A stretch of DNA of 64,000 nt from Rheinheimera sediminis. Lineage in GTDB: Bacteria > Pseudomonadota > Gammaproteobacteria > Enterobacterales > Alteromonadaceae. Location: contig NZ_RZUF01000017.1 of NCBI RefSeq assembly GCF_004005375.1, positions 62,001-126,000 of the forward strand. Direction: 5' to 3'. The position numbers and the translations under genes were made by a program. Positions 44,726-63,658 of the stretch are shown piece after piece; position 1 is the first letter of the stretch, and each line of letters begins with the position of its first letter. The notes under the pieces were generated by a model. That model ran no database searches. It was not told the DNA's origin and saw nothing but the letters and a program-made list of their open reading frames with translations.

Positions 44726-45709
44726 ATGACCATCAAAACAGCTCGTATGGAACCAGGCGTCAAGTTACGTGACGCAGAAAAAATGGCCCTGATCCCAGTG
44801 AAAGTATTACCGACAGAACGTGATGAAATGTTGCGTAAGCCGGACTGGTTAAAAATCAAGTTACCACGCAGCACAGATAGGATTGAACAAATCAAAGGCG
44901 CTATGCGTAAGCATGGTTTACATTCAGTCTGTGAAGAAGCATCCTGCCCTAATCTGTCAGAATGTTTTAACCACGGTACTGCCACTTTTATGATTTTAGG
45001 TGCGATTTGCACCAGACGTTGCCCGTTCTGCGATGTGGCTCACGGACGCCCTTTGCCTCCAAATGCGGAAGAGCCGGAAAAACTGGCGCTCACTATCAAA
45101 GATATGGCATTAAAATACGTGGTGATCACCTCGGTAGACCGTGATGATTTACGTGATGGCGGAGCTCAACATTTTGCTGACTGTATCAGCTCTATCCGTC
45201 GTGAAAGCCCGGCTATTAAAATTGAAGTTCTGGTGCCAGATTTCCGCGGCCGTATGGATGCAGCATTGGAGATCCTGACGCAAACTCCACCAGACGTGTT
45301 TAACCACAACCTGGAAACAGCGCCACGTTTATACAAACTCGCCCGTCCTGGTGCTGACTATAAGTGGTCGCTAGAGCTACTGCGTCGCTACAAAGAGGCG
45401 CATCCAGAAGTCTCTACCAAATCAGGCCTGATGGTAGGTTTAGGTGAAACCACAGAAGAAATTATTGAAGTAATGCGCGATCTGCGTGCGCATAACGTCG
45501 ATATGCTGACGGTGGGCCAGTACTTACAGCCAAGTAAACACCATTTACCCGTCAAACGTTATGTTTCGCCGGATGAGTTTGACGATATTAAACGTATTGG
45601 GTTCGAACTTGGTTTTAAGCACGTTGCCGCAGGCCCCTTCGTCAGATCCAGTTATCACGCCGATCGCCAAGCAGCGGGTGAAGAAGTTGTGAATTACAAC
45701 GCTAAATAG
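44726..45709 (+). CDS. lipA: Lipoyl synthase LipA, 3' end rebuilt by transposon DNA
   Basis: About 327 aa from the ATG at 44726 (an in-frame GTG at 44717 overlapping lipB is possible). Auxiliary cluster cysteines in [13 protein letters not shown], radical-SAM cysteines in [13 protein letters not shown] and the conserved C-terminal Ser in FVRSSYHAD. It inserts two sulfurs into octanoylated domains. The last six codons (after GEEV) lie inside the first 20-bp repeat of the transposon end, giving a tail VNYNAK in place of the usual short end. All catalytic residues are retained, so it should work. Confidence 0.94.
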
Positions 45710-45768
45710 TACTGCACAATGCTAATTTGTACTCTACATTGCTCTTTTGTACTGCCCAGCGGCTTTAC
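45689..45768 (+). repeat. Four tandem 20-bp repeats (candidate TnsB-binding sites)
   Basis: Units in exact 20-bp register: GTGAATTACAACGCTAAATA (45689), GTACTGCACAATGCTAATTT (45709), GTACTCTACATTGCTCTTTT (45729) and GTACTGCCCAGCGGCTTTAC (45749). Units 2 and 3 are most alike; 1 and 4 share GT, the ACA/CCA centre and GCT. The first overlaps the lipA stop. Abutting ~20-22 bp TnsB sites are the rule at Tn7 ends. Confidence 0.75.
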
Positions 45769-47536: not shown

Positions 47537-49059
47537 GTAAGACAAATCAAATGCAAACAGAAACCCCAGCCTTGCTTCAACAAGAAACCTCTGCTTATGC
47601 ATATCCGTCCTCCCAGTATGGTTCCATAGTAATTCACCCACCAGTAGCGGAAAAAACATATAGCTTCATTTCTTACATTGACGTTCTAGTTGTCCCGCTA
47701 AGCTTAGTAATATTTTATTTTTTCAGTGTGAGAAAGCTTAAAACAGAGACTGAAAAGTTAGGTCTTGAGGCAGAAAAGCTGAAAACAGAGCGGACTAAGT
47801 TTGAGACTGAGATCAGAGGAATTGAACAAACGTTAAATCAGAATAAGCTGTCCTTCGAAGAGCAAATTAATTCAATCCGAAGAACGGAGATAAAAGCACA
47901 ACTACAGAATTTCTTTGCTCCATTTAAGAGTTTGCGAATCCAGTCATCTAATCTCTATATGTTATTCGCCTTAGAGCACAAAGCACAGGCAAAAATAAAC
48001 CGGGATGCACTGGCTGAAGAATTAGCGCGACAAAATAAAATCCTGAGCAGACAGGAAATGACTAGAACCCAAATAAGTCAGTGCTACTTTGGAACCGTAA
48101 GGCATTTTATCGATGGCAAAACCTTCAAGAAAAAGGACCAAGAAATACTAAATCAAATTCTTGTTGTCGGAGATCAGATCGTTGAGTTGATTTCAAAGAA
48201 TGCTTTTATACTTAAAAACACTAGCTTGCATGGTATATTGGGAGAGTATGCGGCGCATGTAACCACTTTGAAGCTGGCATCTCAAGGGTATCTAAAAGGA
48301 AACGAAAAAGCGTCTGAACTGTCTATGCCGCTTGAGATAGACGGCGCTATCGAATCAGCAATCATGGCCTTAGAAGCGGAGTATCAATCACTTATGCCGA
48401 ACCACAAGAAAGAAGGTCCAACATTGGACGCTGACGAGAAAGCAACCATATCCTATTACGATAATAATGCTATGTCATACTTCGATAGCACTATTACCAT
48501 TGATCTGCAGGACATATACGATAAGTTTCGTGAAGCTCTCCCCAATTCGGCTTATATTTTGGACGCAGGTTGTGGAGTCGGCAGAGATAGCCGTTATTTC
48601 ATTCAAGTTGGCTATAAAGTCAGATCCTTTGATGCATCTGAAGAAATGGTTAAGTTCTGCAGCCAATACCCATTCGCTTTTTGTGAACACAGAGCTTTTG
48701 CTGATGTAACAGAGCTTGAAGAATATGATGGAGTATGGGCATCAGCATCACTTTTACATTTGGCCGAAGATAGTTTCAAACTTGCTTTGTTAAGACTTTC
48801 CTTTGCACTTAAAGTCGGAGGGGCGATGTACTTTAGCCTTAAAGCTGAACCCGATGAATCAAACAGTAAAGACACGCGCAAGTTTTACTATTACTCTCCT
48901 ACCTTCGTCAAAGATTACCTAAAAGAGCTGAACTTGGAAGTAATTAACGTTTGGACAAACATAGGTCGAAAACCAGGCTCACCCAGTACTTTCACAAACT
49001 ATCTGGTGAAAAAGTCCAGCAGAGTAACAAGCCCAGAAACAAGATCTCGCAACAGTTAA
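47533..49059 (+). CDS. Membrane-anchored coiled-coil protein with SAM-methyltransferase domain
   Basis: 508 aa. One transmembrane helix (about 47-66, VLVVPLSLVIFYFFSV), a charged coiled coil (about 68-130), a helical middle region and a C-terminal class I methyltransferase: DAGCGVGRDSRYFIQVGYKV (motif I), DASEEMVKFC (motif II) and FALKVGGAMYFSLK. The methyltransferase part resembles TehB/small-molecule methylases, not DNA methylases (no DPPY/NPPY). Start GTG overlaps the TnsE-like stop (GTGA), so the two are co-translated. Function unknown; a defence or regulatory role is inferred only from its place. Confidence 0.65.
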   Translation: MSKTNQMQTETPALLQQETSAYAYPSSQYGSIVIHPPVAEKTYSFISYIDVLVVPLSLVIFYFFSVRKLKTETEKLGLEAEKLKTERTKFETEIRGIEQTLNQNKLSFEEQINSIRRTEIKAQLQNFFAPFKSLRIQSSNLYMLFALEHKAQAKINRDALAEELARQNKILSRQEMTRTQISQCYFGTVRHFIDGKTFKKKDQEILNQILVVGDQIVELISKNAFILKNTSLHGILGEYAAHVTTLKLASQGYLKGNEKASELSMPLEIDGAIESAIMALEAEYQSLMPNHKKEGPTLDADEKATISYYDNNAMSYFDSTITIDLQDIYDKFREALPNSAYILDAGCGVGRDSRYFIQVGYKVRSFDASEEMVKFCSQYPFAFCEHRAFADVTELEEYDGVWASASLLHLAEDSFKLALLRLSFALKVGGAMYFSLKAEPDESNSKDTRKFYYYSPTFVKDYLKELNLEVINVWTNIGRKPGSPSTFTNYLVKKSSRVTSPETRSRNS

Positions 49060-49200: not shown

Positions 49201-50121
49201 ATGTATACAAATCAATTCACAAATTCGACTATCACGCTTTCGTTCAGTGGTCACGAAACGTTCCCGCTAAGACAAATGTGGATCAAGAAAGTGGTCGACA
49301 TGGCTGATAGCAACCACTTGATAAAAAAGGCAAAATTTAACAGCATTGAGTTTATTGCAGAACTTGGTGTGGGTAAAAACATGCTCGCATCAATGAAACA
49401 TTGGGCCCAAGCGTGCCAAATTATTGAAGACCATGACAGTACCCATTTCGTATTAACCGAAGTGGCAAAAACGATATTCTTACACAGTGGGCATGATCCC
49501 TACTCTGAGAACCTATCTAGTACGTGGCTGTTGCACTGGAGGTTGGCTCAAAAAAGTGAGCGGGCAACAACCTGCTATTGGCTGTTTAACCGGATTCATT
49601 CAGGCGTATTCTCAAAATCAGAATTACAGCAACAACTGAGTAATTTATGTTCAGAGCTTGGTAAAGCAACTTCGCTTGGTTCATTGACAAGAGATATAGA
49701 CACTATTGTTCGCAGTTATGTCCCAAAATCTGATCTTGCAGCAATTGAAGACAGCACTGACCCTGTTTTTGGCGAACTAGGTCTGATACACCATTTAAAT
49801 AGTGATGTTTACAGTTTCAACAGAGGCCCTAAAAGCTCGTTAAATCTGCCTCTATTTTTATATATCGTGCTGGATTATTGGCGTATCTCTGGTCGAACTG
49901 ACAGTACGCTATCTCTTGATGCAATTGCGTATGGTGAAGCTTCACCAGGCAGAATATTAAAACTAGATGAAGACTCTATCATTGCTTACCTAATCCAAGC
50001 AGATGATGTCTCATTAGGGCGAATTAGATGGTCAGACCTTGCAGGCATCAAGCAACTGTCAAAACAAAACTGTGATGTTGATATGTTAATGAACGAGATG
50101 TTACGGAAAGCATATGAGTAA
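49201..50121 (+). CDS. sspB: DUF4007 protein, SspB-like nicking subunit (candidate)
   Basis: 306 aa. N-terminal signature LSFSGHETFPLRQMWIKKVVD and GVGKNMLASMKHWAQACQII are those of the DUF4007 family, which includes SspB, the nickase of the SspABCD single-strand phosphorothioation system. The C-terminal half (LSLDAIAYGEASPGRILKLDEDSI) continues the family pattern. In known systems it nicks DNA at the modification site. GAGGG lies only three bases before the ATG. It overlaps the next gene by eight bases. Distant BREX-associated relatives exist, so the label rests on the neighbouring genes. Confidence 0.75.
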   Translation: MYTNQFTNSTITLSFSGHETFPLRQMWIKKVVDMADSNHLIKKAKFNSIEFIAELGVGKNMLASMKHWAQACQIIEDHDSTHFVLTEVAKTIFLHSGHDPYSENLSSTWLLHWRLAQKSERATTCYWLFNRIHSGVFSKSELQQQLSNLCSELGKATSLGSLTRDIDTIVRSYVPKSDLAAIEDSTDPVFGELGLIHHLNSDVYSFNRGPKSSLNLPLFLYIVLDYWRISGRTDSTLSLDAIAYGEASPGRILKLDEDSIIAYLIQADDVSLGRIRWSDLAGIKQLSKQNCDVDMLMNEMLRKAYE

Positions 50122-53100
50122 TAAAAATTCAAATGGCAGCTTATCTGACTTAGTAAGAGTTGTTCCCTATTATCAGCGTTCTATTCAATTAAGTGAGGAT
50201 ATCGGGCGACAAGATGCAGTAGAGGGGTACATTTGTCACGAGACGGCACGCAGTGTTCTGCACAGTATGGTTCAGCAGGTTGTTAATACTAATCAGCGAG
50301 CTTTTACCTGGACCGGACCATACGGCAGCGGTAAATCGAGTCTAGCACTGGTATTTTCAAATGCATTGTCGAACAATCACAAAGCACAAACAATTCTGCG
50401 TACTGATACCATTACTGATTTTGACAAAGCCTTTCCTACATCAGAAAAAAGCTGGTTAATCATACCGGTGGTAGGTAGTCGTCGCTCTTTCATTGCAGCA
50501 ATATCCGAAGCTGTTGGTCGCATTTCAAATCGGGAATGTGATTCCAAAGATAGCATTTTTAAAATCCTCCGAGATCTATCTAATTCAAACGAGCATGACG
50601 GTGTTCTGTTAGTTATCGATGAAATGGGTAAATTTTTAGAGGGTGCCCAAACGACTGGTGATGACGTTTACTTTTTTCAGGAATTAGCAGAGTTATGCTC
50701 TAGAACACAGGGCAACTTAATTACTGTAGGTATTTTGCATCAATCATTTAAACAATATGGAAAACTTCAGCGACTGAGCGAAAGCACTCAAAACGAATGG
50801 GCTAAAGTCCATGGTAGATTTGCGGATATCCCTTTAATTTCGTCAACGGATGAGGTTATCGAACTTCTAGGTAACGCCATCGATTCTGAGATATCTATCT
50901 CAGACCAATTAAAATATAAAGTGATGGTTCCAGTTGCGGAAAGCATTCGCACTAGAAGGCAAGGTGTTAGCAAAGACATTGAAAGTAAGTTTTTAAATTG
51001 CTGGCCACTTCATCCTTCAACGGCACTTATCCTAGGGCCTGCGTCAAAGAAACAATATAGTCAGAATGAGAGAAGTGTCTTTAGTTTTCTGGGGTCCTCT
51101 GAATCTTATGGCTTTCAAGAGTTTTTGAAAACACGACTGGCAAATGAGTTACAAAGTTATACTCCAGCTGATTATTGGGATTATCTTCAAGCGAATCTCG
51201 AACAAGCGATTCTCGCTTCTACTGACAGTCATCGCTGGAGTATCGCAAGCAATTCGGTCAGCAGAGCAGAAGCCATGGGGACAGAGCTTCATATTGCCGT
51301 TGTTAAAAATATTGCAGCCATAGATCTTTTTAAAAATGGCTCTGGTCTTGCTGCAGACATGAAAGTGCTGCAAGCACTGTTTTACGATTGCAAAGACGAA
51401 CAACTTAAAGCGGTAATCAGCGATCTTGAAAACTGGAAGATTATCGTACACCGAAAGTTCAATCATGCTTGGTCGGTGTTTGAGGGGAGCGATTTTGATA
51501 TTGAAAAGGCAGTTTCTGAGGAAAGAGCATCAATCTCTGCCGTAGATACACAGCAACTTTCTAATCTCGCGAAATTTCAACCAGTCATTGCCAAAAAACA
51601 TTTGTATGACACTGGTACGTTAAGGTGGATGGGTATATCCATCGTTCCTCAATCTGCGCTAAATAATCACTTACGTAATTTCAAGTATTCACCTAACGAG
51701 TTCGGGCAATTTATTGTGTTAGTTGACTCGCCAGACACTATATCTGTAAAAAGTCAGCTTGAGCATTTACAGTCCGAAACAGTGTTTGTAGTTGGACGCC
51801 CAGAGAACGCAGATACGATTTCGAATCTAGCCAAAGAATTATTAGCCTATGAAGCTACAGCAAAAAGACCTGAATTAGAGGGTGACAGCGTAGCTCTAAA
51901 AGAGGTCAATTCAAGAATTGCTTCGGTAAAAGCACTACTAGAAAGACAGTTAACTCAAGCTTTAAAAGATATTGAATGGTATTTACCAGGTAACAACTCA
52001 ACTACTCGTGCAGATAATTTATCGCGGCTTGCATCTGACTTAGCCGATCAACATTTTGCAAAATCACCTAAAATTTTCAGCGAATTGCTTAATAGAGACT
52101 CGCTTTCGTCAAGCAGCGTTAGCGCGCGAAGAAATTTGCTGTATCGGATGCTGAATAACATCAAAGATGAAGATCTTGGTATTGAGGGCTACCCAGCGGA
52201 GAAAGGTTTATACCTTACAGCACTTAAAAATACGGGATTACATAATAGAGAGAAAGGCAACGAGTGGACACTATCACTCCCGACAAAAGATTCAAAGCGC
52301 CTTGCTCCACTATGGAACGCGACAGACGCATACCTAAAATCAAAAGATGACTCAGTAAAAGTTGCAGACATATACGACATGTGGCGAAGACCACCATTCG
52401 GTTTGAAAGAAGGCTTAGTACCTATCTTATTTTGGGCTTACGCACTGTCTAACTCAGGTCGATTTGCAATTTACCGTGATGGTATTTATTTACCCGCCTT
52501 AGAAGAAATTGATATCGATTACAGCCTGCAAAATATAAAGAGGATTGAACTACGTGGTGTTGAGTTAACCCCTTCCAGACTGGCACTTCTTCACTCTGTC
52601 GCCAAAGCATTAAATACCTGCGGTATTAGCCTAGAACATACAGATCCACTCACTGCAGCAAGAAAACTGGTCACTATCGTATACAGGCTAGAACCATGGG
52701 CCAGAAATACCAGAGAAATATCTAAAGAAGCAATAGCACTTCGTGATTTGTTATTGAAAGCGTCAGACCCGCATAAAGTTATTTTTTATGACCTGAAGCA
52801 GGTATTCAACAAGAAAGATGACTCCGATATTGAACAAAAGCTTATTGCGGTTATTCGGGAACTCACGTCGGCTTATTCGTCAATGTTGAAGCGATTTGAT
52901 CAATTGCTTAAGCAACAGTTGGATGCACAATCAAACTCGCAAATTAGTCTAAGAGCAAAGAATCTGAAAGACACAGCTGGCGAATTTCTTATAGAGTCTT
53001 TTCTGGGGCGCCTGACAACCTACGATGGTTCAGAGGAGTCAATTGTAGCACTTCTATCTTTGGTTGCTGAATTAACACTTAGAGATTGGACAGATCAGAA

Positions 53101-53404
53101 TGTCGTACAAACCAGAAACAAAATGATCAATCTATGTCGTCAATTTAGAGAGCTGGAAACTATTGCTGATGTTAACGCGAGGCAGCCAACTCGTCAGGCA
53201 ATAGCATTAGTTTACGGTGCCGCCGGTAAGGACTTTATCCGACACATAGAAGTTGATGACATGGCGTATGCAAAACTGGAAGACTTAACAACTAATTTGT
53301 TGAAGCAGTTAAAATCGAATGATTTGGACCAAGAGTTACAGTTTGCGGTAATCGCAAAAACGTTGGAAAAGCTAAGGATGGAGGATAGCAACCATGGCAG
53401 TTAG
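50114..53404 (+). CDS. sspC: Large P-loop ATPase, SspC-like (candidate)
   Basis: 1096 aa. Walker A GPYGSGKSSLAL (about 68-79), Walker B VLLVIDEMGKFLEG (about 175) and a sensor-like region ITVGILHQSF. The rest is a long helical part without recognised motifs. Size and place between a DUF4007 gene and a PAPS-reductase-fold gene match SspC, the ATPase needed for phosphorothioation with SspB and SspD. BrxC-like ATPases of BREX share the GPFGSGKS motif and are the main alternative, but no pglZ or brxL is present. Overlaps both neighbours. Confidence 0.72.
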   Translation: MSNKNSNGSLSDLVRVVPYYQRSIQLSEDIGRQDAVEGYICHETARSVLHSMVQQVVNTNQRAFTWTGPYGSGKSSLALVFSNALSNNHKAQTILRTDTITDFDKAFPTSEKSWLIIPVVGSRRSFIAAISEAVGRISNRECDSKDSIFKILRDLSNSNEHDGVLLVIDEMGKFLEGAQTTGDDVYFFQELAELCSRTQGNLITVGILHQSFKQYGKLQRLSESTQNEWAKVHGRFADIPLISSTDEVIELLGNAIDSEISISDQLKYKVMVPVAESIRTRRQGVSKDIESKFLNCWPLHPSTALILGPASKKQYSQNERSVFSFLGSSESYGFQEFLKTRLANELQSYTPADYWDYLQANLEQAILASTDSHRWSIASNSVSRAEAMGTELHIAVVKNIAAIDLFKNGSGLAADMKVLQALFYDCKDEQLKAVISDLENWKIIVHRKFNHAWSVFEGSDFDIEKAVSEERASISAVDTQQLSNLAKFQPVIAKKHLYDTGTLRWMGISIVPQSALNNHLRNFKYSPNEFGQFIVLVDSPDTISVKSQLEHLQSETVFVVGRPENADTISNLAKELLAYEATAKRPELEGDSVALKEVNSRIASVKALLERQLTQALKDIEWYLPGNNSTTRADNLSRLASDLADQHFAKSPKIFSELLNRDSLSSSSVSARRNLLYRMLNNIKDEDLGIEGYPAEKGLYLTALKNTGLHNREKGNEWTLSLPTKDSKRLAPLWNATDAYLKSKDDSVKVADIYDMWRRPPFGLKEGLVPILFWAYALSNSGRFAIYRDGIYLPALEEIDIDYSLQNIKRIELRGVELTPSRLALLHSVAKALNTCGISLEHTDPLTAARKLVTIVYRLEPWARNTREISKEAIALRDLLLKASDPHKVIFYDLKQVFNKKDDSDIEQKLIAVIRELTSAYSSMLKRFDQLLKQQLDAQSNSQISLRAKNLKDTAGEFLIESFLGRLTTYDGSEESIVALLSLVAELTLRDWTDQNVVQTRNKMINLCRQFRELETIADVNARQPTRQAIALVYGAAGKDFIRHIEVDDMAYAKLEDLTTNLLKQLKSNDLDQELQFAVIAKTLEKLRMEDSNHGS

Positions 53405-54230
53405 ACATGTTCTAGGACTTTCTGGCGGGCGAGACAGCGCGGCCTTAGCTGTTTACATGCGTCACTATTATCCTGAACTAGACATTGAGTACTTTTTTAC
53501 TGATACAGGGAAGGAGCTCCCAGAGGTATACACCTACTTAAATAAATTAGAGGGTTTCTTAGGTAAAACTATAACGAGATTAAATACTCAACGGGGATTT
53601 GACTACTGGCTTGATGAATATGGCTACTTCTTACCTTCAGCTAGTGTTCGCTGGTGTACCAGAAAACTTAAGCTTGACCCATTTAAAGCTTGGGTTAACA
53701 ACATGATCAACCAAGGTGACATCGTCTATAGCTATGTAGCAATCCGCTCTGACGAGGAACATCGCGAAGGTTATTCATCTCACCATAAAAATCTGGTTGT
53801 CAAAATGCCGTTTAGAGAAGATAACTACAACAAGGCTGCGGTTATAGATTTATTAAATTCATCTGGATTGGGTTTACCAAAATACTATGAATGGCGTTCC
53901 AGAAGTGGCTGTACCTTTTGCTTCTTCCAGCAAAAAATTGAGTGGGTTAACCTTAAAGAGAGGCACCCAGAAGCTTTTGAGGAGGCTAAAGCCATTGAAA
54001 AAATGGCAATTGAGCATAAGTCACCTTTCTTATGGAGTGAAGGTGAGCCATTGGAAGAGCTCGAGAAGCCAGAACGCATAGCGAAAATCAAGTCAGATTT
54101 TGAATATCGAAAAATCAAAGCGTCATCGTCCCGACCAGTAAATCCTCTGCTTGTAGGATTAGAAACTGAGATTGATGAGCTGTATTTTGCAGAAGAGGGA
54201 AATGGCGCCTGTAACATTTGTCACAAATAA
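53394..54230 (+). CDS. sspD: PAPS-reductase-fold sulfur transferase, SspD/DndC-like
   Basis: 278 aa. PP-loop LGLSGGRDSAALAVYM (about 7-22) binds and adenylates; cysteines in RWCTRKLKLDPF, SGCTFCFFQQKIEW and the terminal CNICHK could hold an Fe-S cluster. The family activates the DNA backbone with ATP and inserts sulfur. It overlaps the ATPase gene by 11 bases. A cysteine desulfurase (SspA) is absent from the window; a chromosomal IscS could supply sulfur. Confidence 0.8.
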   Translation: MAVRHVLGLSGGRDSAALAVYMRHYYPELDIEYFFTDTGKELPEVYTYLNKLEGFLGKTITRLNTQRGFDYWLDEYGYFLPSASVRWCTRKLKLDPFKAWVNNMINQGDIVYSYVAIRSDEEHREGYSSHHKNLVVKMPFREDNYNKAAVIDLLNSSGLGLPKYYEWRSRSGCTFCFFQQKIEWVNLKERHPEAFEEAKAIEKMAIEHKSPFLWSEGEPLEELEKPERIAKIKSDFEYRKIKASSSRPVNPLLVGLETEIDELYFAEEGNGACNICHK

Positions 54231-54288
54231 TGGGACTTGAAAATATAAGCGTATACGCGGTACATTAAAAAAAAATGGGAATTTTCTT

Positions 54289-56637
54289 ATGGGTAATGGA
54301 TTTAGAATTTCGGCAAGAGCTTTAAGGCAGCTAGGAGCTGAACTGATAACTTCAGATGAAATAGCCTTAAATGAATTAATCAAAAATGCTCTAGATGCCA
54401 ATGCATCTAGAGTAATCATCGATCTAATTAATCCTTTCCTATACCCAAGAAATACTTGCATAGCCAGAATACTCAATAAAATTAATAATTCTCCTTCAAA
54501 TGACCTAATAACAAACAAAGATAGCTTTTTTGTTGATGGGGTTTCTGACGAAATAAAAGAGGAATTCATCAATGGCATAATAGAGCTAGTCGATGAAAAT
54601 GACTCAGCAGAATGCATCACAAGTTATGTGAATAATTTTTATGATAAGGAATGCCATATTCGGGTTGAAGATGATGGTTGTGGTATGGACAGTAATACTT
54701 TGCAGAATTCATTTTTAGTTATTGGAACCCCCGGGAAATGGATTGAGAAACAATCAAATCAAGACAGTAAATTGCTTGGTGAAAAGGGCGTTGGCAGGTT
54801 ATCAATGATGCGCCTAGGTAAGGCTGCATCTGTTATATCTGGCGTTTCAGGGCAGAACCACTCCAGCAATATAAATTTTGATTGGTCCTTATTTGATGAT
54901 CCTTCTTTGTATCTTGAAGATATATCAATACCTGTTCACAGCAACTATAGAAGTAAAGAAATTAATGCAAGTGGAACACAAATATCAATTAATAGCCTGT
55001 ATTCGCATTGGGATGCTGAAAAAGTAAAGAGTTTTATATTTGAATACCTACGCCGACTTCAGAATCCCTTTAGCAAGAAGAGAAAATTTCCGATAGAAGT
55101 AAGACTTAATAATGAGCCACAACCAATACCAGGGATTTTTTCTTGGTTTAAAGAAGCAGCAAACTTTTCTGCACATGTTAGCTTCTCTGTGTCTGAAGAA
55201 AATGCAGTGCTAAATATGAAAAGGGAATTAACCTGGAGAGGTAAGAGCAGTGCAGAAAGTAGAATCTGGGAGGAAGCAGATTTATTAAGAGAACTTGGGT
55301 GTGATAAGGATATATTGGTTGAACTTGGGGCATTTGATTTAGATTTACTGTGGTTTAATCGGAGTGACCTTCAAGGAGCGTCAATAGACAAGAGCGTTAC
55401 AGAGATTAAAACAGAGCTCAACTTGTGGTGTGGTGGATATGCGATATACCGAGACAACTTTAGGATAGGAATGACCGGTAGCTTAGAGGACGATTGGTTA
55501 AAAGTAGATACCGGATCTCTCAAATCAAGTGGATTTTCTTTTAATAGATACCAAACTGTTGGCTCGATTTCAATCAGCCAGAAAAAAAATCCAAAACTTA
55601 TTGATGCAGCTAATCGTGAAAAATTAATAGGCTGTGAACATCTGAGCATGTTAAAGCAAATTTTAACAGAATTAGTCAATAAAGACCTGAAAAGTCATAT
55701 TGAATTTTTTAAAGAAAATGAAGCGAGAAAAATAGCTGATGAAGCTACTGCTGAACAAAGTCTAGATGATGCACGAGACAGACTAAAATCTGCTTATACA
55801 AAAATGTCTTCTCTTAAAAAAGTGCTGCCAAAAGACAAAGAATCCATCGTTGCTGAAATAGAACATGTATTAAAAACCCAGCATGAAAATATTAGAAAAT
55901 ACGAAAAAGCAGTTAACATGTCTAGGGAACAAAGAATTGAAGTATTAGAACTTGCTGGTTTAGGTATGGTGGTTGACAAAATTATTCATGAACTAGCAAG
56001 ACTTACTTCTAGCACTGTAGAAAATCTTAAAAGGTTAGAGAACAATAATAACTCTAAAGAGAGTGCAAGTTTAATTAGAATTATCAGAGAACAACTTAAA
56101 GTTACGAATAAGAGAATAAGAACGGTTGATTCTCTAAGCCCTTCTGGTAGAAATAGAAAAGAAATTTTTGATATATCAAAAACTATTAGAGCTGTGCTTG
56201 ATGGTTTTTCTGGCCGTTTTGAGAGACATCAAGTAGATGTGAAATTTATGATCGACGGTATTTTAGGTAGCCAGAAAGAGTGTGATGTAAACATGGTCGT
56301 TGGCCTTGTTGCTTTGGTGCTAGAAAATCTTTTGTCAAATTCAATTTACTGGCTGCAACAAAGCACAACAAGCTCAGACGGTCAAAGAATTATAGAGATA
56401 GACTTAGACACCCAATCAAAAACATTACTGATTAGAGATAATGGCCCCGGAGTAGATCCCTCTAATAAAGACGATATATTTAAAGCATATTACACAGGCA
56501 GAGCAAAGGGTAAGGGGCTAGGTCTATTTATATGCCGAGAAATAGCTGAGTACCATAAATGTGCAATTTATCTGGACTCTGAAGTAGATTTCGATGGAAG
56601 GCTAAGAAACTTTATTTTAGAACTACCTAAAGATTAA
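54289..56637 (+). CDS. Dual-GHKL protein: MORC/Hsp90-like ATPase plus histidine-kinase core
   Basis: 782 aa, AT-rich. The N-terminal GHKL domain has ELIKNALDANAS (N box, about 29-40), VEDDGCGMDS and LGEKGVGRLSMMRLG. A ~130-residue coiled coil follows (about 470-600), with LGMVVDKIIHELARLTSS resembling the phosphoacceptor helix of histidine kinases. The second ATPase domain has VLENLLSNSIYWL, RDNGPGVD and GKGLGLFICREIAE. So it combines a gyrase/MORC-type clamp and a kinase-type module. A 58-base gap with the palindrome GCGTATACGC separates it from sspD. It may be the effector or sensor of the module; no such pairing is known to me. Confidence 0.72.
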   Translation: MGNGFRISARALRQLGAELITSDEIALNELIKNALDANASRVIIDLINPFLYPRNTCIARILNKINNSPSNDLITNKDSFFVDGVSDEIKEEFINGIIELVDENDSAECITSYVNNFYDKECHIRVEDDGCGMDSNTLQNSFLVIGTPGKWIEKQSNQDSKLLGEKGVGRLSMMRLGKAASVISGVSGQNHSSNINFDWSLFDDPSLYLEDISIPVHSNYRSKEINASGTQISINSLYSHWDAEKVKSFIFEYLRRLQNPFSKKRKFPIEVRLNNEPQPIPGIFSWFKEAANFSAHVSFSVSEENAVLNMKRELTWRGKSSAESRIWEEADLLRELGCDKDILVELGAFDLDLLWFNRSDLQGASIDKSVTEIKTELNLWCGGYAIYRDNFRIGMTGSLEDDWLKVDTGSLKSSGFSFNRYQTVGSISISQKKNPKLIDAANREKLIGCEHLSMLKQILTELVNKDLKSHIEFFKENEARKIADEATAEQSLDDARDRLKSAYTKMSSLKKVLPKDKESIVAEIEHVLKTQHENIRKYEKAVNMSREQRIEVLELAGLGMVVDKIIHELARLTSSTVENLKRLENNNNSKESASLIRIIREQLKVTNKRIRTVDSLSPSGRNRKEIFDISKTIRAVLDGFSGRFERHQVDVKFMIDGILGSQKECDVNMVVGLVALVLENLLSNSIYWLQQSTTSSDGQRIIEIDLDTQSKTLLIRDNGPGVDPSNKDDIFKAYYTGRAKGKGLGLFICREIAEYHKCAIYLDSEVDFDGRLRNFILELPKD

Positions 56638-56666
56638 AATTTGAGCTTACACTTGAGGGAACTAAT

Positions 56667-58535
56667 GTGAGTAGCGTTAAAAAAGTTATAATTCTAGATG
56701 ACGACCTGGCTGAGCCAACAATAATGATGGAAGGAGCCAATGAAAAAATCGCTCATTTCCTAAATGATCAAGGTTCTAAAGAATTTACTGAAACAATACA
56801 GTACATAGAAAAAAATGAATTTGTCAACGATATTGACGATATCGATGCAATCCAAACATTTGTAAACTCATCCGATTTTGTAGAAAAAGTATTATTAAAA
56901 GATGACTATAAGAATCTTTTTGATGGAGCATTTCATGAACACCTCAAAGATTTCTCTGATGTCATAAACAATAGACTTAATGTTTTTAAGCCATTTTTTA
57001 CGGTATTTGGTTCAGAGAATTTCCAACTTAGTAAGACACATAAAAGACCTGTGTCGCCTGATGAATTAACTAGCTATGATGTAATCATTATGGACATCAT
57101 GATGGGCGATAGTTTTGACAGCGAATTTATCAAACTAGCAGAATACATTGGTAATGTTTGCCGAAGAGGAAATTACCCGTCAGTGTTTTTAATATCCTCT
57201 AGAGATGAATTAGATGATGAGAAGGAAACATTTAGGGTTAATGCAAAAATAAGCTCTATAGGTTTTTCAATAATTAAGAAAAGCGATTTGCTTCATGACA
57301 ACGCTGAGCTCACTATCCAGCTGATATACGAACAGATGAACAAGGCTAGGAGCTCAAATAAATCACTCAGCGAATTTACAAATCAACTTGAGTTAGCGAT
57401 TAAACAGTCAACGATCAATGTATTAAAATCACTATGGAATATAGATTACTCGTACATACAACAGATGTACGCATGTCTTGATAATGAAAATGTGCCTTTC
57501 GCAGAGCATTTCTTGAACATTATTACTAGCAATATGCTATTTAATTTGGAAGCGAGTAGCAGCCTGCATACCGCTATAAGTGACGTGAAATCAATTATCA
57601 GCGGAGATGCGGAGAGATTTTGTAGTTACTCTAAAGACTCAGACATCGCAATACATAACTTTGAAGCTTCACTACACTTTGTTGGCACAAAAACTGAAGA
57701 TATCACATGCGCTTCACTTTGCACATCTACCGACCAGCTTGGGAAAGAAATAGTTAATATTCTCCCCTTCGGATTATTATTGGCAGAGGGCAACCTTTCT
57801 GTTGGATCTCGGGCGCTAATTCACTGTACACAACAGTGCGACTTAAGTAGAAATATTATTAAAAGTAGTATTAATTTAATATTTGTAGAAGGACGCATAC
57901 TCAATTATCCGAATAAAGAATTTTGCATTCCTTTGCCAACAAACATATCAAAAACAAATCAACGACTATGGCTTGAGGTTGACAGTAAAAAAGTATTAGC
58001 CTGGCCTTACTCAGGCATGTCTCGCTACATTATCGAAAACAAGTTCAAATCCCTATCAATAGTTAGACCAGATGTAGTTAGACAGATTAGATCAAATTTA
58101 TTTCAGCAAATGTCAAGAAGAGAAGAGTCAGTTAAGACAGGCCATAATGCCTCTTTTGGGATAAAAATCGCTATCTATAATAATAGCACTACAGCTGTTG
58201 TGTTGGATTACAACGAAACTAACGATATAAGAAAAATTTTGCTGTACGAATTCCCAGATCAAAAATCGAAGGAAAAAACATTTCATTTTCTGGATCATAG
58301 CCACATTGACGTTATAAACTGGATATATCAGAATTCAGGAGATTTACTTAAAGATTTATCATTCAAAGCATTTGAAGATATCTTAAAGTCAAAACTGCCT
58401 AAAATAGGAAAAAAAGCAACTGCTGAAAAGACGGAATTTATGTTACTTGATGATGCAGACAAAGTCTCTGAGTTCTGTAAAGCTGAGAAAAGTAAGAGAA
58501 AATTAGTTAGAGTTATTTTTTATAAATTTAATTAA
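56667..58535 (+). CDS. Receiver-like protein partner of the dual-GHKL protein
   Basis: 622 aa, start GTG with GAGGGA upstream, 29 bases after the GHKL gene. An N-terminal receiver-like domain has VIILDDD (about 7-13), a candidate phospho-Asp in YDVIIMDIMMGD (Asp143), ISS about 180 and Lys in IIKKSD. A ~80-residue insertion sits between the first strand and the Asp strand. The remaining ~400 residues match nothing I recognise, with no DNA-binding or nuclease motif seen. It probably receives phosphate from or docks to the preceding protein. It is the last gene of the rightward cargo. Confidence 0.6.
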   Translation: MSSVKKVIILDDDLAEPTIMMEGANEKIAHFLNDQGSKEFTETIQYIEKNEFVNDIDDIDAIQTFVNSSDFVEKVLLKDDYKNLFDGAFHEHLKDFSDVINNRLNVFKPFFTVFGSENFQLSKTHKRPVSPDELTSYDVIIMDIMMGDSFDSEFIKLAEYIGNVCRRGNYPSVFLISSRDELDDEKETFRVNAKISSIGFSIIKKSDLLHDNAELTIQLIYEQMNKARSSNKSLSEFTNQLELAIKQSTINVLKSLWNIDYSYIQQMYACLDNENVPFAEHFLNIITSNMLFNLEASSSLHTAISDVKSIISGDAERFCSYSKDSDIAIHNFEASLHFVGTKTEDITCASLCTSTDQLGKEIVNILPFGLLLAEGNLSVGSRALIHCTQQCDLSRNIIKSSINLIFVEGRILNYPNKEFCIPLPTNISKTNQRLWLEVDSKKVLAWPYSGMSRYIIENKFKSLSIVRPDVVRQIRSNLFQQMSRREESVKTGHNASFGIKIAIYNNSTTAVVLDYNETNDIRKILLYEFPDQKSKEKTFHFLDHSHIDVINWIYQNSGDLLKDLSFKAFEDILKSKLPKIGKKATAEKTEFMLLDDADKVSEFCKAEKSKRKLVRVIFYKFN

Positions 58536-58793: not shown

Positions 58794-59025
58794 GTAAGCG
58801 TAACACGAACCCCACATTCCAGTTTTAGCTAATATTCCATACCCTGTTTGCATTATTCACCAAGTAGGGTTTCCTATGATGTGCAGAAGCTCCGAACAAT
58901 GGCTAGCGCTGTTTGACCAGTGCAAAGCAAGCGGTTTGACCCAGACCGAATTTGCAAAACAACACCGTATCGACCCAAGTTACACTTACAATCTACCTGG
59001 TACAAACTCAGACGGTAGCAAATAA
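58794..59025 (+). pseudogene. IS66-family left end with truncated TnpA
   Basis: Begins with GTAAGCG, the usual IS66 terminus, at 58794. From 58876 an ORF encodes MMCRSSEQWLALFDQCKASG...LTQTEFAKQHRIDPSY, the helix-turn-helix start of IS66 TnpA, and then runs into unrelated sequence at about 58990. The rest of the element (tnpB, tnpC, right end) is absent. It overlaps the 3' end of the leftward HTH gene. Confidence 0.75.
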
Positions 59026-59177
59026 AAATATCGCCGCCCCTCTTTTATAAATTCAAGCTTCCCTGTTAATCGCAAATGCATCAAGTGACAGTCAGATATC
59101 TTCAGGATCTGCTTAACCTCATTACTGGTTAACCAACTACTTATCTTTGGTTCGGAAAGCTTTTGTTTAATGCTCAT
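58986..59177 (-). CDS. Small MerR/excisionase-like HTH protein
   Basis: 63 aa from the ATG at 59177 (a longer frame to 59282 overlaps tniQ). The segment WLTSNEVKQILKISDCHLMHLRLTGKLEFIKEGRRYFY has the winged helix-turn-helix pattern of Xis/MerR-type DNA-binding domains. It is 31 bases downstream of tniQ on the same strand. It may regulate the transposition genes or assist end binding. Its last codons overlap the IS66 junction, so the native C-terminus could have been altered. Confidence 0.6.
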   Translation of the reverse strand: MSIKQKLSEPKISSWLTSNEVKQILKISDCHLMHLRLTGKLEFIKEGRRYFYLLPSEFVPGRL

Positions 59178-59208
59178 TTTCCGGCCTACGTGCGTTGATA
59201 GCATTATA

Positions 59209-60243
59209 TTATTGCCTCGATTTTGAAAGCTTATAACCTCGTTTACTTGGTGGCAAGGCAAACAATTTATCAAGTTCAGCAATTTCGGGCCCCTTCAAAT
59301 CCCGATAAACCTGGTTTGAAGGCAACATCCGTTTTTGTATGGCAGTACGAAGCTTGCGCTCTGCCTGTACGTCACTGATCCAAGCGGCAAGGCCTAACAC
59401 GTAATGGCGCTCTTTAAGGTCGCGCTGTTCAAAGGCTTTTCTGCTTTTTACTAACTCACATACTGGTTGGCTCACAATGCTGCAGATGTAGCCCTGTAAA
59501 TCAGGAGCAAGATTTTCGCTAACTATTAAACGACACATTTGATGCCATAGAATTAGCCTTGCTGTGTTTAACGGGCCACAGTCTCTGAACTGGCGGTCGA
59601 CAACATTCAGCAATGTCTCCCACTGCATAAAAGGCCTGCGGTGCCATTTATCTACCGGCTCTCGTGGAGCTTCGCTTAGTAACGCATTGCAGTGCCAGCA
59701 ATGGTCCATAGAACTAGCCTCCAGCAAGTTGGCTTTGCCAAGTTCTACCCTGTGAAACGCCACTGGATGTTGGCATTGGTGGCAGCGATCGTGCAGCATA
59801 ATTTGATGTTTAGGGCAGAAGGTATAAAACGCCAGTCGCCAGCTTAATCGAAAATACGGGATCACATCTTCTGCCAGGCATTGTGGGCAATACTGCACAC
59901 CAAAGTTTCTGAAGGTGCGGTGGTACAACCTCAGCGGCAACAGCCAACGTAACTGGCCGCTGGCATGTTTAGCACGAAAAAACCTCCCTTCAAAAAGCAG
60001 AGCTGTCATCTTTTGCACCTGCACTAATGGCGTGCCTGTGCGTTCGCTCATAATTTGCAGTAACCAATCCGGAGCAAGCCGGTCTATATCCCGGTTCCAG
60101 ATCTGGCGTTCGTGCCCAAAGTTTCGTACTGCAAAGGTTTGAGCTTTCATGCCATTGGCGTGTGCACAACGAATTAACCAGGATGATAAAGCCTCTCCAG
60201 GCAAAGGACGCGGGTGAGCTGGCCAGAGCTTACCCGTCAGCAT
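59209..60243 (-). CDS. tniQ: TniQ/TnsD-family target-selection protein
   Basis: 344 aa. The N-terminal TniQ signature LPGEALSSWLIRCAHANGM, then a zinc-binding block CPQCLAEDVIPYFRLSWRLAFYTFCPKH...HDRCHQCQHP (about 118-165), followed by a helical C-terminal part. It recognises the target site and recruits TnsC. It is shorter than Tn7 TnsD (~500 aa) and closer in size to TniQ of Tn5053/Tn6022-type elements. One base separates it from tnsC. The insertion at lipA suggests this protein reads the lipA 3' end. Confidence 0.88.
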   Translation of the reverse strand: MLTGKLWPAHPRPLPGEALSSWLIRCAHANGMKAQTFAVRNFGHERQIWNRDIDRLAPDWLLQIMSERTGTPLVQVQKMTALLFEGRFFRAKHASGQLRWLLPLRLYHRTFRNFGVQYCPQCLAEDVIPYFRLSWRLAFYTFCPKHQIMLHDRCHQCQHPVAFHRVELGKANLLEASSMDHCWHCNALLSEAPREPVDKWHRRPFMQWETLLNVVDRQFRDCGPLNTARLILWHQMCRLIVSENLAPDLQGYICSIVSQPVCELVKSRKAFEQRDLKERHYVLGLAAWISDVQAERKLRTAIQKRMLPSNQVYRDLKGPEIAELDKLFALPPSKRGYKLSKSRQ

Positions 60244-60244
60244 A

Positions 60245-61144
60245 CTACTGCGCCCTGTCTATTTGGCGTTTGCGCTCTGAAGGTGGAGTCCAGCGAATTT
60301 CGGCTAAAGCTTTTTGGTTGATATGCTCAGTGCCATTTAAAATAGCCCACTCTGCAGCCGTATTGAGCACGCCAGACAATTCGCCAATATAACCTTCGCA
60401 CATGGCATACAGCCTGGAAGCCAACGCATCCTGTTTCAGTTCAGAAGGGTGTTTTAGCGGCAACATTTTTTCAAAGCTGGCCAGCAGGCGTTTAAAGTCG
60501 TCATTCAGTTCCCAGCGCGGTAGTTGTATTGGCTTAAAGCGGTTTGCTAATTGTGGCTCAGTTTGCAGCGCCCGCAAGGCGTCTTTGGTACCTACGCCCA
60601 CAATGGAAATTTGCAGCTCATTACTCAGGTACTTCAGTACGTTCAGAAAAGCTCTTTGCCTGTGTAAGCTACCAGCCAGAATATGATGAATTTCATCGAC
60701 AACCAGAACTTTTAGCTCCACATAACGTAACAGCTTCAGCACCTGAAACTGCTTTTTATCCACCCGTTCACTGGGCCTGTATGGTGCAAACAGGCTATCG
60801 AGAATGGCATTGTAAAAACGGCCTTCGTCCGGCACTGGTGGAGCCTGAATGTACATCACTGGCGCTATAACCGAATCGCCGTTTGGGTTGTCAAAAGCAG
60901 GGTTCAACTGGCAGAACCTTTTGGCCAACATAGTTTTGCCATTGTTTGACTCGCCAATCAGGATCATGTTGGGCATACGGTTATTGCGTGGATGTTTAAG
61001 CAGTTCATCCAACTGCTGCAATACTTCTTTGGCGTAAGGGTAGCCAATCCAGCGGTCTGATTTAATCTTGTATATACGTTCCTGATCGGTCAGTAGTAAG
61101 GCTTTTTGGGCTGATTCGGTTAAATGACTGGCCTCTATGCTCAT
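60245..61144 (-). CDS. tnsC: TnsC/TniB-type transposition ATPase
   Basis: 299 aa AAA+ protein. Walker A LIGESNNGKTMLAKRF (about 62-77), Walker B VLVVDEIHHIL (about 145), sensor region ISIVGVGTKDAL. Forms filaments on target DNA and bridges TniQ with the transposase. Smaller than Tn7 TnsC (555 aa), like TniB. Overlaps tnsB by four bases (ATGA). Confidence 0.9.
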   Translation of the reverse strand: MSIEASHLTESAQKALLLTDQERIYKIKSDRWIGYPYAKEVLQQLDELLKHPRNNRMPNMILIGESNNGKTMLAKRFCQLNPAFDNPNGDSVIAPVMYIQAPPVPDEGRFYNAILDSLFAPYRPSERVDKKQFQVLKLLRYVELKVLVVDEIHHILAGSLHRQRAFLNVLKYLSNELQISIVGVGTKDALRALQTEPQLANRFKPIQLPRWELNDDFKRLLASFEKMLPLKHPSELKQDALASRLYAMCEGYIGELSGVLNTAAEWAILNGTEHINQKALAEIRWTPPSERKRQIDRAQ

Positions 61145-63012
61145 AATTCGTCCAGCTCATCGAAAGGCAGAATATCATCTACATCGCTTTCAGGAAGAAT
61201 GATGGCTGCGGGTTGCTGCTCTACTCTGCTTTGTTCAATAGTTGCATGAGCTTGCTGATGAGTTTTGCGGCGCTGATCCATACGCCGAACCGCTTTGCTG
61301 GTTTGTACGGCCTTACTTTCAATTTCGCGCATGCGCTCATAGGCATCAAAAATGGCCCGCTCGTCAATGTCCTTTTTACCCGAATCCAAAGCCCGCTTAC
61401 GGGCCTCACGCAGCTCCCAAATGCTAATTGGAGGGTGAGCCATGTTTCGGTATGGAATAGGGTAGTAAGTGGCTAACTCGGGGTCGTAGAACCAGATTTG
61501 GCTTAAATCCCGAGGGTCGCGCCGGAACATAAACTTGCGTTTACGCCTTGGTTCTTTTGGATCAGGAGCGTTAATCCATATCCGCAGCACATCACTGTAA
61601 TAGTGAATTTCATCAATCTGAACACCGTAATCCTGAATTGTTCTGAGTTCAAAAGGCATCAGATCCAGCCTGAGTTTAAAGTCGTCCACAATCTTTGCCG
61701 GCAAGCCTGAACCTGGTTGCTCGTTACTACCAAGGATGCCTTTATTCCAGGCCTGTTGTGGTGACATTCCTAAACTGCTGTGCAACCGCTGGTGATATAC
61801 ATCGACAATATAAATCGTTAACCAGGCTTCAAATTCTGACAAAGTAAGTGCTGCCTTACCTTCTGAGTCGTATTCACCTTTCTGCCTTGTGTTAGAAAAG
61901 GTGGTGCCTGGCAGTGTGTGGATCTCGGTAGCAAAAGAACCTAATGCCCTTTCCACATGAGCACCAAAGTTTGGTCGCCCAACCGGCCGCCATTCCAGAT
62001 CAATACCGTATTCGTCACAGCCACGTTGCAACATGCTGCCCCGAAACTCTTTGGCATTGTCCAAGTGCACCTTGCTTGGTAACCCCCATACAGGCCACTG
62101 ATTCTGCGTAGGATAACGGGCCAGCCATTTATCTTTGGTCAATATGGCGTGAGTTAAGCAAAGCCCTGTAGACAAGGCGCTTGGCGGGTCGAAGGAAACA
62201 TAAAAGCCTTCCACCATCCGGCTATGTACATCAAACGCCAGAGTGATCCAGGGCCTGCCAATAGGCTGACGGTAGTGGTCATCCACCAAGATAATATCCA
62301 GCTTGGTATGGTCAATTTGCACCACAGCCAGAGGGTAATCTGCGCCTGGAAAACTTCCCTCATGCGGTTTGTAACTTAAATCAGCAGTCTTCCGGCCTAA
62401 CCGGCTGGCAGCCACTAATTCGCCCTGCAGCTGCTTAATCCGGTTACGAATGCTGTTGTCATGTGGTACCGGCAAATTAAGCTTTAAACATTGCTTACGA
62501 ACTTCATCACAAACTTTTTGTTTGCTCTTTTTCTGCCTGGTAAGGTACTCACTTTGAATCGCTTCGCTAATAATTTGCTCAACCTGCGGGTTCAGTTTGG
62601 CGGCACCTTTATCACTGCGGGATCTAGGTAACAAAGACGAAAGTAACCCGCTTTGCTCATAGCTGCGTAACCAGCTATAGATAGTATTGATGTGTACGGC
62701 ATGCACAGCAGCCAAAGTAGCCACATCACCCCGAGTCCGGTTCGGCATTCCCAGCAGAGGTTTAATAATTTCGTGACGTTTCTTGGCCACAGCCCAGGCT
62801 TTGTCGTCAATCGCCTGCAGATCGGTATGAGTTTGTTCAGTAGATAGTGTGGCTGGTTGCAAGTCTTCGATATTGGCAATAACAACTGCCTGATTGTCAT
62901 CATCCAGAAGTTCGATACGATCAAAGGAATCTATGCGGCGAATACGGTGAGTTTTGCCCTGATAGGACACCAGTTTGCCTGGTTCTAATTCAACCAGAGC
63001 CACCTTAGCCAT
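61141..63012 (-). CDS. tnsB: TnsB/TniA-type DDE transposase
   Basis: 623 aa. N-terminal HTH domains (about 85-215, including VHINTIYSWLRSYEQSGLLSSL), an RNase-H-fold core with first Asp in VVQIDHTKLDIILVDD, second Asp in VHLDNAKEF and Glu in NFGAHVERALG, then a beta-barrel and a Lys/Arg/Gln-rich C-terminal tail that should contact TnsC. Cuts and joins the 3' ends. Overlaps tnsA by eight bases. Confidence 0.92.
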   Translation of the reverse strand: MAKVALVELEPGKLVSYQGKTHRIRRIDSFDRIELLDDDNQAVVIANIEDLQPATLSTEQTHTDLQAIDDKAWAVAKKRHEIIKPLLGMPNRTRGDVATLAAVHAVHINTIYSWLRSYEQSGLLSSLLPRSRSDKGAAKLNPQVEQIISEAIQSEYLTRQKKSKQKVCDEVRKQCLKLNLPVPHDNSIRNRIKQLQGELVAASRLGRKTADLSYKPHEGSFPGADYPLAVVQIDHTKLDIILVDDHYRQPIGRPWITLAFDVHSRMVEGFYVSFDPPSALSTGLCLTHAILTKDKWLARYPTQNQWPVWGLPSKVHLDNAKEFRGSMLQRGCDEYGIDLEWRPVGRPNFGAHVERALGSFATEIHTLPGTTFSNTRQKGEYDSEGKAALTLSEFEAWLTIYIVDVYHQRLHSSLGMSPQQAWNKGILGSNEQPGSGLPAKIVDDFKLRLDLMPFELRTIQDYGVQIDEIHYYSDVLRIWINAPDPKEPRRKRKFMFRRDPRDLSQIWFYDPELATYYPIPYRNMAHPPISIWELREARKRALDSGKKDIDERAIFDAYERMREIESKAVQTSKAVRRMDQRRKTHQQAHATIEQSRVEQQPAAIILPESDVDDILPFDELDEL

Positions 63013-63658
63013 TATTCAAACTCCGGATAACGCTTGCCATTGTCAGCTTCTGAGTCAAATCTGCTACCACCTGATGTGTCCCTATCAGATACCATAACAC
63101 TGGAATATATTCAGCCTGAATCATAGGGTTGGCGTCAATTGAATTTAGCAGGCTTTGCACTGTTGTACTGGGCTGCAGTGCCAGCTTCTCCAATAGCACA
63201 GGAACTTGTTCAGCTTCAGAGGTGACACGGCGGGTAAATGGCAGCAGAAATTTAGCATTATCAAGCAACGTGGTACGAACTCGCCGCTCAGTGATCAGCT
63301 TAAAACGCCAACCTCTTTCTTTGGCGTAGCGGTACGCAGCCTGAAACTTAGGTTTAAACTGCGTCCAGTTTTCCCGAAGCTCATCACGGTATTTCACTTC
63401 ACACAGCAAAGGCTTGGTACCAGCCTGATGGTAATACACCAGTACATCGGGCGTATAAGTATGGTTTTTCCCTTCAGCATCCACCCATTTGATCTTCACC
63501 GGCTGCACTTCAAAGCTTTCCACCTCAGCGGAAAACTGCAGCAACGTCAGCCAATCACGCTCCAAGGTAGACTCAAACATAGCCTTACCCTCAGATTTAG
63601 AGTTAGCAGCAACGCCAGTCACGTTGCGGTAGTTTTTAGGGATGTTGCGGATTGGCAT
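63005..63658 (-). CDS. tnsA: TnsA-type endonuclease
   Basis: 217 aa. Restriction-like nuclease: Glu in AMFESTLERDWLTLL, Asp in YTPDVLVYY and Glu-x-Lys in LLCEVKYRDEL are the expected catalytic residues. Cuts the 5' ends, giving cut-and-paste transposition. First of the four transposition genes. Its start is overlapped by the end of a gene further out, which is unusual. Confidence 0.92.
   Translation of the reverse strand: MPIRNIPKNYRNVTGVAANSKSEGKAMFESTLERDWLTLLQFSAEVESFEVQPVKIKWVDAEGKNHTYTPDVLVYYHQAGTKPLLCEVKYRDELRENWTQFKPKFQAAYRYAKERGWRFKLITERRVRTTLLDNAKFLLPFTRRVTSEAEQVPVLLEKLALQPSTTVQSLLNSIDANPMIQAEYIPVLWYLIGTHQVVADLTQKLTMASVIRSLNNG

Follow-up and report, generated by a model that had tools for sequence, protein, structure and literature searches.

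An sspBCD module in Rheinheimera sediminis adjoins a GHKL sensor kinase and a receiver protein that are the candidate restriction arm of an Ssp variant

We analysed a window of 64,000 nucleotides (nt) of Rheinheimera sediminis (contig NZ_RZUF01000017.1, positions 62,001 to 126,000), in which a first-pass annotation had singled out an sspBCD-like DNA phosphorothioation module followed by genes for a protein with two GHKL ATPase domains and a receiver-like protein. All five genes were confirmed at 49201-58535 on the forward strand. The module comprises sspB (49201..50121; 306 amino acids (aa), DUF4007), sspC (50114..53404; 1096 aa, large P-loop ATPase), and sspD (53394..54230; 278 aa, PAPS-reductase fold). 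Content and order were as annotated, with PADLOC matches to SspB (2.5e-95; Pfam DUF4007 4.3e-78), SspC (E 0, 1227 bits), and SspD (1.6e-129, 430 bits). A type 4 BREX system has homologues of SspB, SspC, and SspD (PMC12839542; here and below, statements on published work refer to the accessible parts of the papers cited), but such an identity is highly improbable here: SspC reached only 324 bits with BrxC and SspD only 39 bits with BrxP (30 bits with DndC), and no PglZ or BrxL occurred among the element proteins scanned (seven proteins with PADLOC; Pfam), the rest of the genome not having been searched. BREX membership was rejected on the PADLOC scores and the module assigned to Ssp. Successive ssp genes overlap (by 8 and 11 nt), the GHKL gene follows sspD after 58 nt and the receiver gene follows GHKL after 29 nt, so that the five genes look like one operon. 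Promoter and terminator scans were uninformative, with fewer sites than in shuffled sequences. The G+C content is 35–41% over 50–58 kb compared with 43–51% in the first 46 kb. No sspA was found within the window; the cysteine desulfurase that the module requires is represented in the genome by IscS, which scored above cut-off (G000:C13:218657). Judging from its family, sspBCD probably introduces sulfur into host DNA as a phosphorothioate (PT) mark.

The fourth gene (54289..56637, forward strand) encodes a GHKL sensor kinase of 782 aa with an N-terminal MORC-like GHKL domain, a coiled coil, and a C-terminal histidine-kinase core. Pfam detects HATPase_c_3 within the first quarter of the protein and HATPase_c at its C-terminal end, and the order HATPase_c_3, H-E box, HATPase_c is present together with the adjoining receiver gene. 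The fold model (mean pLDDT 80.1, pTM 0.61) matched the histidine kinases HK853 (2.9e-12) and ZraS (1.8e-11), the MORC2 ATPase with DNA (6.8e-11 over about 540 columns, TM 0.33 by query), and also Hsp90-type chaperones. In alignments of 40 sequences (the window protein and 39 relatives), the N-terminal residues E29, N33, D36, D128, G130, G132, K166, G167, and G169, the C-terminal residues N680, N684, D717, G719, G721, G743, and G745, and the predicted phospho-acceptor box H567-E568 (codons at 55987..55992, forward strand) were invariant (40/40), which suggests that the two ATP sites and the phospho-acceptor are functional. The meanings given to these motif residues are those we take to hold throughout the GHKL and histidine-kinase families. 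The kinase scored 14.7 bits with Pfam PF19191 (HEF_HK), below the cut-off of 24.1; 15 of the 40 kinases matched this family at E 0.01.

The fifth gene (56667..58535, forward strand) encodes a receiver-effector protein of 622 aa, consisting of a receiver with a long helical insert (residues 1–230), a helical region (about 228–340), and a beta-rich C-terminal domain (about 360–545) that we regard as a putative effector domain. The fold model resembles known receivers and is likewise beta-rich at its C-terminus. D11/D12/D143, S177, and K205 were invariant (40/40), with D143 (codon at 57093..57095, forward strand) as the predicted phosphorylated aspartate. The putative effector domain carries a T-(P/Q)-x-C-D-L motif whose cysteine and aspartate, C391-D392 in the window protein (codons at 57837..57842, forward strand), were each kept in 39/40 sequences. 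A single receiver (1/40) matched Pfam PF19192 (Response_reg_2) at E 0.01. The residues expected of a two-component system (phospho-histidine, ATP-site boxes, and receiver DD/D/S/K) are thus present and invariant; the roles assigned to them are presumed from the respective families (also PMC8011034).

Conservation of the pairing was assessed by scanning genomes with a 13-sequence GHKL alignment, from which the best 80 of 519 confirmed loci were kept as nearest relatives, not as a census, and by a scan of viral contigs (best 80 of 98 loci). Genome loci scored either at least 580 or at most 392 bits with the GHKL model, and a threshold of 450 bits separated 43 close loci (41 genome, 2 viral) from 117 distant ones (39 genome, 78 viral). 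The close loci are partly non-independent: L082 is 99.9% identical to L056, three further pairs are 84–86% identical in GHKL, and L086 and L064 derive from the same metagenome-assembled genome. The examined locus DNA contained ssp genes in 37/43 close loci, or in 39/43 counting L054 and L057, for which sspD was inferred on the same contig (contig of 38642; coordinates 573233 versus a locus end of 572808). A large receiver gene directly followed the GHKL gene in 40/43, the three misses being contig ends. The pair is thus a conserved partner of sspBCD among its close relatives. Twenty-seven of the 37 linked loci are arranged as sspBCD-GHKL-receiver in one direction (L055 with one gene between), six are convergent, one has SspFGH between sspBCD and the pair, and three have the pair directly after sspC (L079, L080, L083), followed in L080 and L083 by sspD; on plasmid L037 the pair is also nested between sspC and sspD. 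One gene is split into two open frames in L055 and L078 (sspC) and in L083 (GHKL), perhaps through decay or assembly error.

Other collections gave a similar picture. Fifty-five plasmid records had a GHKL match at 1e-20, and all 16 with at least 27.9% identity share their record with sspD, these 16 including four Acinetobacter baumannii and two near-identical A. tumefaciens plasmids. In each of the 11 close records opened, GHKL is immediately followed by a receiver-sized gene, and ssp genes lie close by. The 39 weaker records (38 Campylobacter, 1 Hymenobacter) were absent from the 60 of 68 sspD records listed, and an opened Campylobacter record carried GHKL, a response regulator, and dcm instead of ssp. 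A search with the receiver protein in a class sample of 274 genomes returned three matches, namely this genome, G141, which carries the same five genes, and a weak one with seven stops. The receiver protein alone had no relative on viral contigs, and no phage record of it was found. Two IMG/VR contigs encode sspBCD and GHKL (L127, which also has the receiver, and L128, which ends inside GHKL); the module may travel on phages, or these contigs may be islands.

The known SspABCD-SspE and SspABCD-SspFGH systems (PMC8092258) have the same sspBCD, likewise have adjoining partner genes, and can replace SspA by IscS; unlike in these systems, the partner here is a GHKL sensor kinase with a receiver protein. 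No SspE or SspFGH restriction partner was recognized in this genome with one model each for SspE, SspF, and SspH. A single SspE model had no match in the genome and matched 5/14 control genomes, and the one SspH model used hit nothing but the end of an 889-aa frame (presumably FtsK), a match also obtained in 8/14 controls. A PbeA model gave 23 matches in the genome, the strongest (2.1e-24) covering part of its length, and was uninformative because it also matched 14/14 controls. In 0/43 close loci was SspE detected with a single-sequence model. The GHKL/receiver pair is the best candidate found for the Ssp restriction arm in this genome, because no SspE, SspF, or convincing SspH match was obtained there. 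Among 109 genes hand-chosen from the 164 that flank 51 loci, we found 11 class-V aminotransferases (probably SspA), 3 HNH genes, and no recurrent helicase or nuclease family (25 of 98 families listed); the remaining flanking families have at most one member each, and lone nucleases of differing families could hide there. We favour, with a probability of roughly 60%, the interpretation that the locus encodes a variant of Ssp PT defence with a soluble phosphorelay as its restriction arm. The pair would then probably be a defence arm that replaces the usual DNA-cutting enzyme, here and in many distant bacteria.

Several observations weigh against this interpretation. The SspF model had no match in the genome and matched 0/14 controls, so that absence is unproven, and SspG was not searched. 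The genome assemblies of L052, L075, and L090 lack sspD, L047 has sspD only on another contig and in two frames, and L079 has sspB and sspC without sspD. SspF, SspG, or SspH is also encoded in 12/43 close loci, so the pair can coexist with SspFGH and is not always the sole partner. Pairwise distances in the 39 loci with all five proteins are strongly correlated within SspB/C/D (r 0.78–0.96) and between GHKL and receiver (r 0.93), and only at r 0.31–0.40 between the two modules; 0/999 permutations were as high, yet shared host ancestry was not removed and could alone produce a correlation of this size. The ssp genes and the GHKL/receiver genes are hence two modules that recombine, although their pairing is not random; such a pattern speaks for the favoured interpretation, in which one modification module would be shared by interchangeable restriction arms. 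Partly separate histories, the three assemblies without sspD, and the lack of sspB and sspC near distant relatives (see below) would also suit an independent defence system that merely shares islands with sspBCD. We consider such a system quite unlikely, given that 37–39 of the 43 close loci are linked, 27 with the pair downstream in the same direction, and that the pair is nested between sspC and sspD in L080, L083, and plasmid L037. Furthermore, the GHKL protein of L090, which is without ssp, is 86% identical to that of L062, which has ssp, and the missing genes may reflect recent loss or an assembly gap.

Starting from ssp loci, one finds the pair only as a minority partner. SspD was matched at 1e-20 in 14 of 398 genomes drawn evenly from the phylum, this one included; in three of them the match is a distant PAPS protein with neither SspB nor SspC in its vicinity, and the examined DNA of the other true ssp loci contained the pair in 0/10 cases, which also counts against the favoured interpretation. 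Neighbours in these loci include SspE (L028), SspFGH (L029, L031, L032), and a PbeA-like gene (L025), and a similarly patchy distribution has been described for SspE and SspFGH (PMC8092258). The PbeA-like gene (L025:10364-12508; 1.3e-185) lies directly downstream of sspBCD in a Pbe/Ssp combination. In another ssp locus (L007:4467-5252, the same as L049), a 261-aa gene without Pfam match stands between sspB and sspC. The idea that modified or unmodified DNA is read through a two-component-like signal, put forward in the first-pass annotation, gained partial support from the Ssp identity of the module, the conserved pair, and the invariant two-component residues, and is limited by this minority status.

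The remaining counterpoints concern the effector domain. Searches for a known enzyme with Pfam, PHROGs, and PDB-sequence profiles gave nothing useful, and the domain belongs to no known family by these profiles. A BFVD structure search had no match at E 0.001, and a VIA search was filled by receiver matches to residues 1–230 and hardly probed the C-terminus. Foldseek ranked LvrB first for the receiver model, followed by two E. coli MazF chains of 5cr2 (prob 0.99 and 0.96, TM 0.54 by target); this output is without aligned range, and we infer that the MazF match falls in the C-terminal domain. Together with the conserved Cys-Asp and Arg residues, it raises the alternative of a MazF/PemK-like RNase and thus of a PT-gated abortive-infection toxin. 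This is rather improbable, as the match is not significant (E 0.066), hhalign against 33 PemK rows gave a probability of 0.9%, and neither PDB-sequence nor PHROG profiles matched.

Among the 117 distant loci, none has sspB or sspC, and two have weak SspD-like matches (74 and 59 bits). The expectation that relatives of the pair keep company with ssp genes therefore held for close relatives, which occur almost only with ssp, and failed for the wider GHKL-kinase family. A distant-type receiver gene lies directly downstream in 33/39 genome and 29/78 viral distant loci, the former figure being partly circular, as the distant-receiver model was built from 29 of the same genome neighbours. The effector domain is common to the receivers of the distant family (hhalign 98.8%). 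In the 39 distant genome loci, a simple gene caller gave a C5 methyltransferase as the nearest upstream frame 12 times and an N6/N4 methyltransferase 8 times. The kinase/receiver architecture has been described from the neighbourhoods of type II restriction-modification genes under the names HEF_HK and Response_reg_2, with no tested function (Bellieny-Rabelo et al. 2021, PMC8011034). The window proteins resemble it in the order of HATPase_c_3, H-E box, and HATPase_c and in the adjoining receiver-like gene, and the distant relatives found here have the C-terminal domain in common with them. In contrast, the modification here is presumably PT, not methylation, with ssp genes in place of a linked DNA methyltransferase, and the receiver gene encodes 619–769 aa in close loci versus mostly about 350–510 in distant ones. 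The accessible text of PMC8011034 does not mention sulfur, PAPS, phosphoadenosine, or DUF4007.

These relatives also bear on the question of whether the pair is a regulator and not an effector. As a regulator, it would respond to PT or stress by tuning the expression or activity of sspBCD, or would treat PT as an epigenetic signal, the latter having also been suggested in PMC12421847. Intact two-component residues are what a regulator would need, and sspBCD does occur without a known restriction partner, solitary modules having been proposed to serve other cellular processes (PMC8092258). Nevertheless, we regard regulation as unlikely: a Pfam DNA-binding output domain was found in 0/40 receivers, the C-terminus of the model is beta-rich, the methyltransferase-linked modules carry the same output domain, and the pair is convergent to ssp in 6/37 linked loci.

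For the favoured phosphorelay arm, the following sequence of events can be envisaged. SspBCD, with sulfur from host IscS, would mark host DNA as inferred from the family. The GHKL protein would be a MORC/MutL-type ATPase that embraces DNA as a dimer and probes it for the host mark with its N-terminal clamp. On unmarked or invading DNA, ATP-driven closure of the clamp would switch on the fused kinase half and lead to autophosphorylation at H567, a reaction for which the residues are in place. The phosphate would pass to D143 of the receiver and release or activate the C-terminal T-x-x-C-D-L/R-x-G effector domain, which might either arrest the infected cell through a toxin-like activity or recruit a nuclease to unmarked DNA. 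The GHKL/receiver genes would constitute an exchangeable module, with distant forms paired with C5 and N6/N4 DNA methyltransferases. More tentative than the assignment as a restriction arm, and with somewhat less than even odds, is the full proposal that a MORC-like clamp reads a DNA mark and signals by a His-to-Asp phosphate relay to a new effector domain, and that the same kind of relay is paired with PT, C5, and N6/N4 methylation.

GHKL proteins of restriction systems are known as the MORC/paraMORC set (Iyer et al. 2008, PMC2292703). The window protein resembles these in its N-terminal GHKL part, the model of which is similar to MORC2 with DNA, and differs in carrying a complete histidine kinase as a fusion and having a receiver as its partner. 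The GHKL-Shedu protein of Vibrio cholerae (PMC12137116) is a different system. A reappraisal of PT machinery (PMC10853773) mentions no histidine kinase, GHKL, MORC, receiver, or response regulator. In 2025, a two-component system was noted in a region of A. baumannii that holds Ssp without sspE, and the authors suggested either an epigenetic role or a new variant of Ssp (PMC12421847); sspE is missing from 5,518/5,530 Ssp loci of global clone 2, and the histidine kinase receives a passing remark in the accessible part of that paper. Four A. baumannii records of the plasmid collection have sspD, a GHKL protein 41% identical to that of the window, and a receiver match, and the one opened has all five genes; the A. 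baumannii Ssp without sspE is probably of the same kind as the locus described here. The A. baumannii GHKL/receiver DNA had no megablast match in E. coli genomes. No description of sspBCD with the GHKL/receiver pair as a system was found in the literature searched, most subscription papers being outside its coverage. The pairing, first annotated as unknown, is therefore undescribed as a system in that literature, but not wholly without precedent, given the short A. baumannii remark of 2025 and the methylation-linked family of 2021. On its gene content, the locus would represent a new variant of Ssp defence.

The Ssp module and the pair are cargo of a Tn7-like transposon inserted in the 3' end of lipA, the last codons of which are supplied by the element. 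Downstream of the receiver gene, the reverse strand encodes a small HTH_17 gene (58986..59282; Pfam HTH_17, below cut-off), a tniQ/tnsD-like targeting gene (59209..60243; Pfam TniQ 8.1e-32), a tnsC/tniB-like ATPase gene (60245..61144; Pfam TniB 1.1e-73), a tnsB-like transposase gene (61141..63012; Pfam Mu-transpos_C 3.6e-09), and a tnsA-like endonuclease gene (63005..63658; Pfam Tn7_TnsA-like_N 1.5e-21). The element further has terminal repeats and a 5-bp target duplication. Its ends were read by eye: the left end (45688..45760) has the terminal TGTGAATT and repeated GCT..TTTGTACT sites, and the right end lies at 65204, beyond the window, with the same duplication GAAGT. The termini are TGTGAATT/TGTGAATA, with repeated GCTAATTTGTACT-like sites. 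The first cargo gene past the left end (45785-47536) encodes a 583-aa protein without Pfam, NCBIfam, or PADLOC match. It is followed by a gene for a 508-aa protein (47533-49059) with a C-terminal S-adenosylmethionine-dependent methyltransferase domain that is generic and of no DNA methylase family by Pfam; this protein has relatives in ssp loci L026, L036, L042, L059, L066, and L069, and in L042 two separate genes match its two parts. At the right end, ahead of the transposition genes and in the same orientation as tnsA, whose start it overlaps, lies an HNH_5 nuclease-like gene (63636-64000, on to about 65081); no sign was found that it belongs to the module. The opened A. baumannii copy also adjoins a Tn7-like gene set; its TnsB is only 29% identical over 320 aa, and two different transposons therefore seem to carry such modules. 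The accessible part of a survey of Tn7 cargo (PMC8649781) lists Dnd in its table and does not mention Ssp or DUF4007.

Among 2,678 sspBCD modules, 2,211 were reported to lack both SspE and SspFGH, and partners as yet unrecognized were named as one possibility (PMC8092258). The GHKL/receiver pair offers a concrete, testable answer for part of these 2,211 modules, probably including the A. baumannii clone without sspE. A phosphorelay that worked as its residues suggest would link two-component signalling with restriction-modification, and the phosphorylated receiver would provide a readout for a step that can otherwise be followed only with difficulty.

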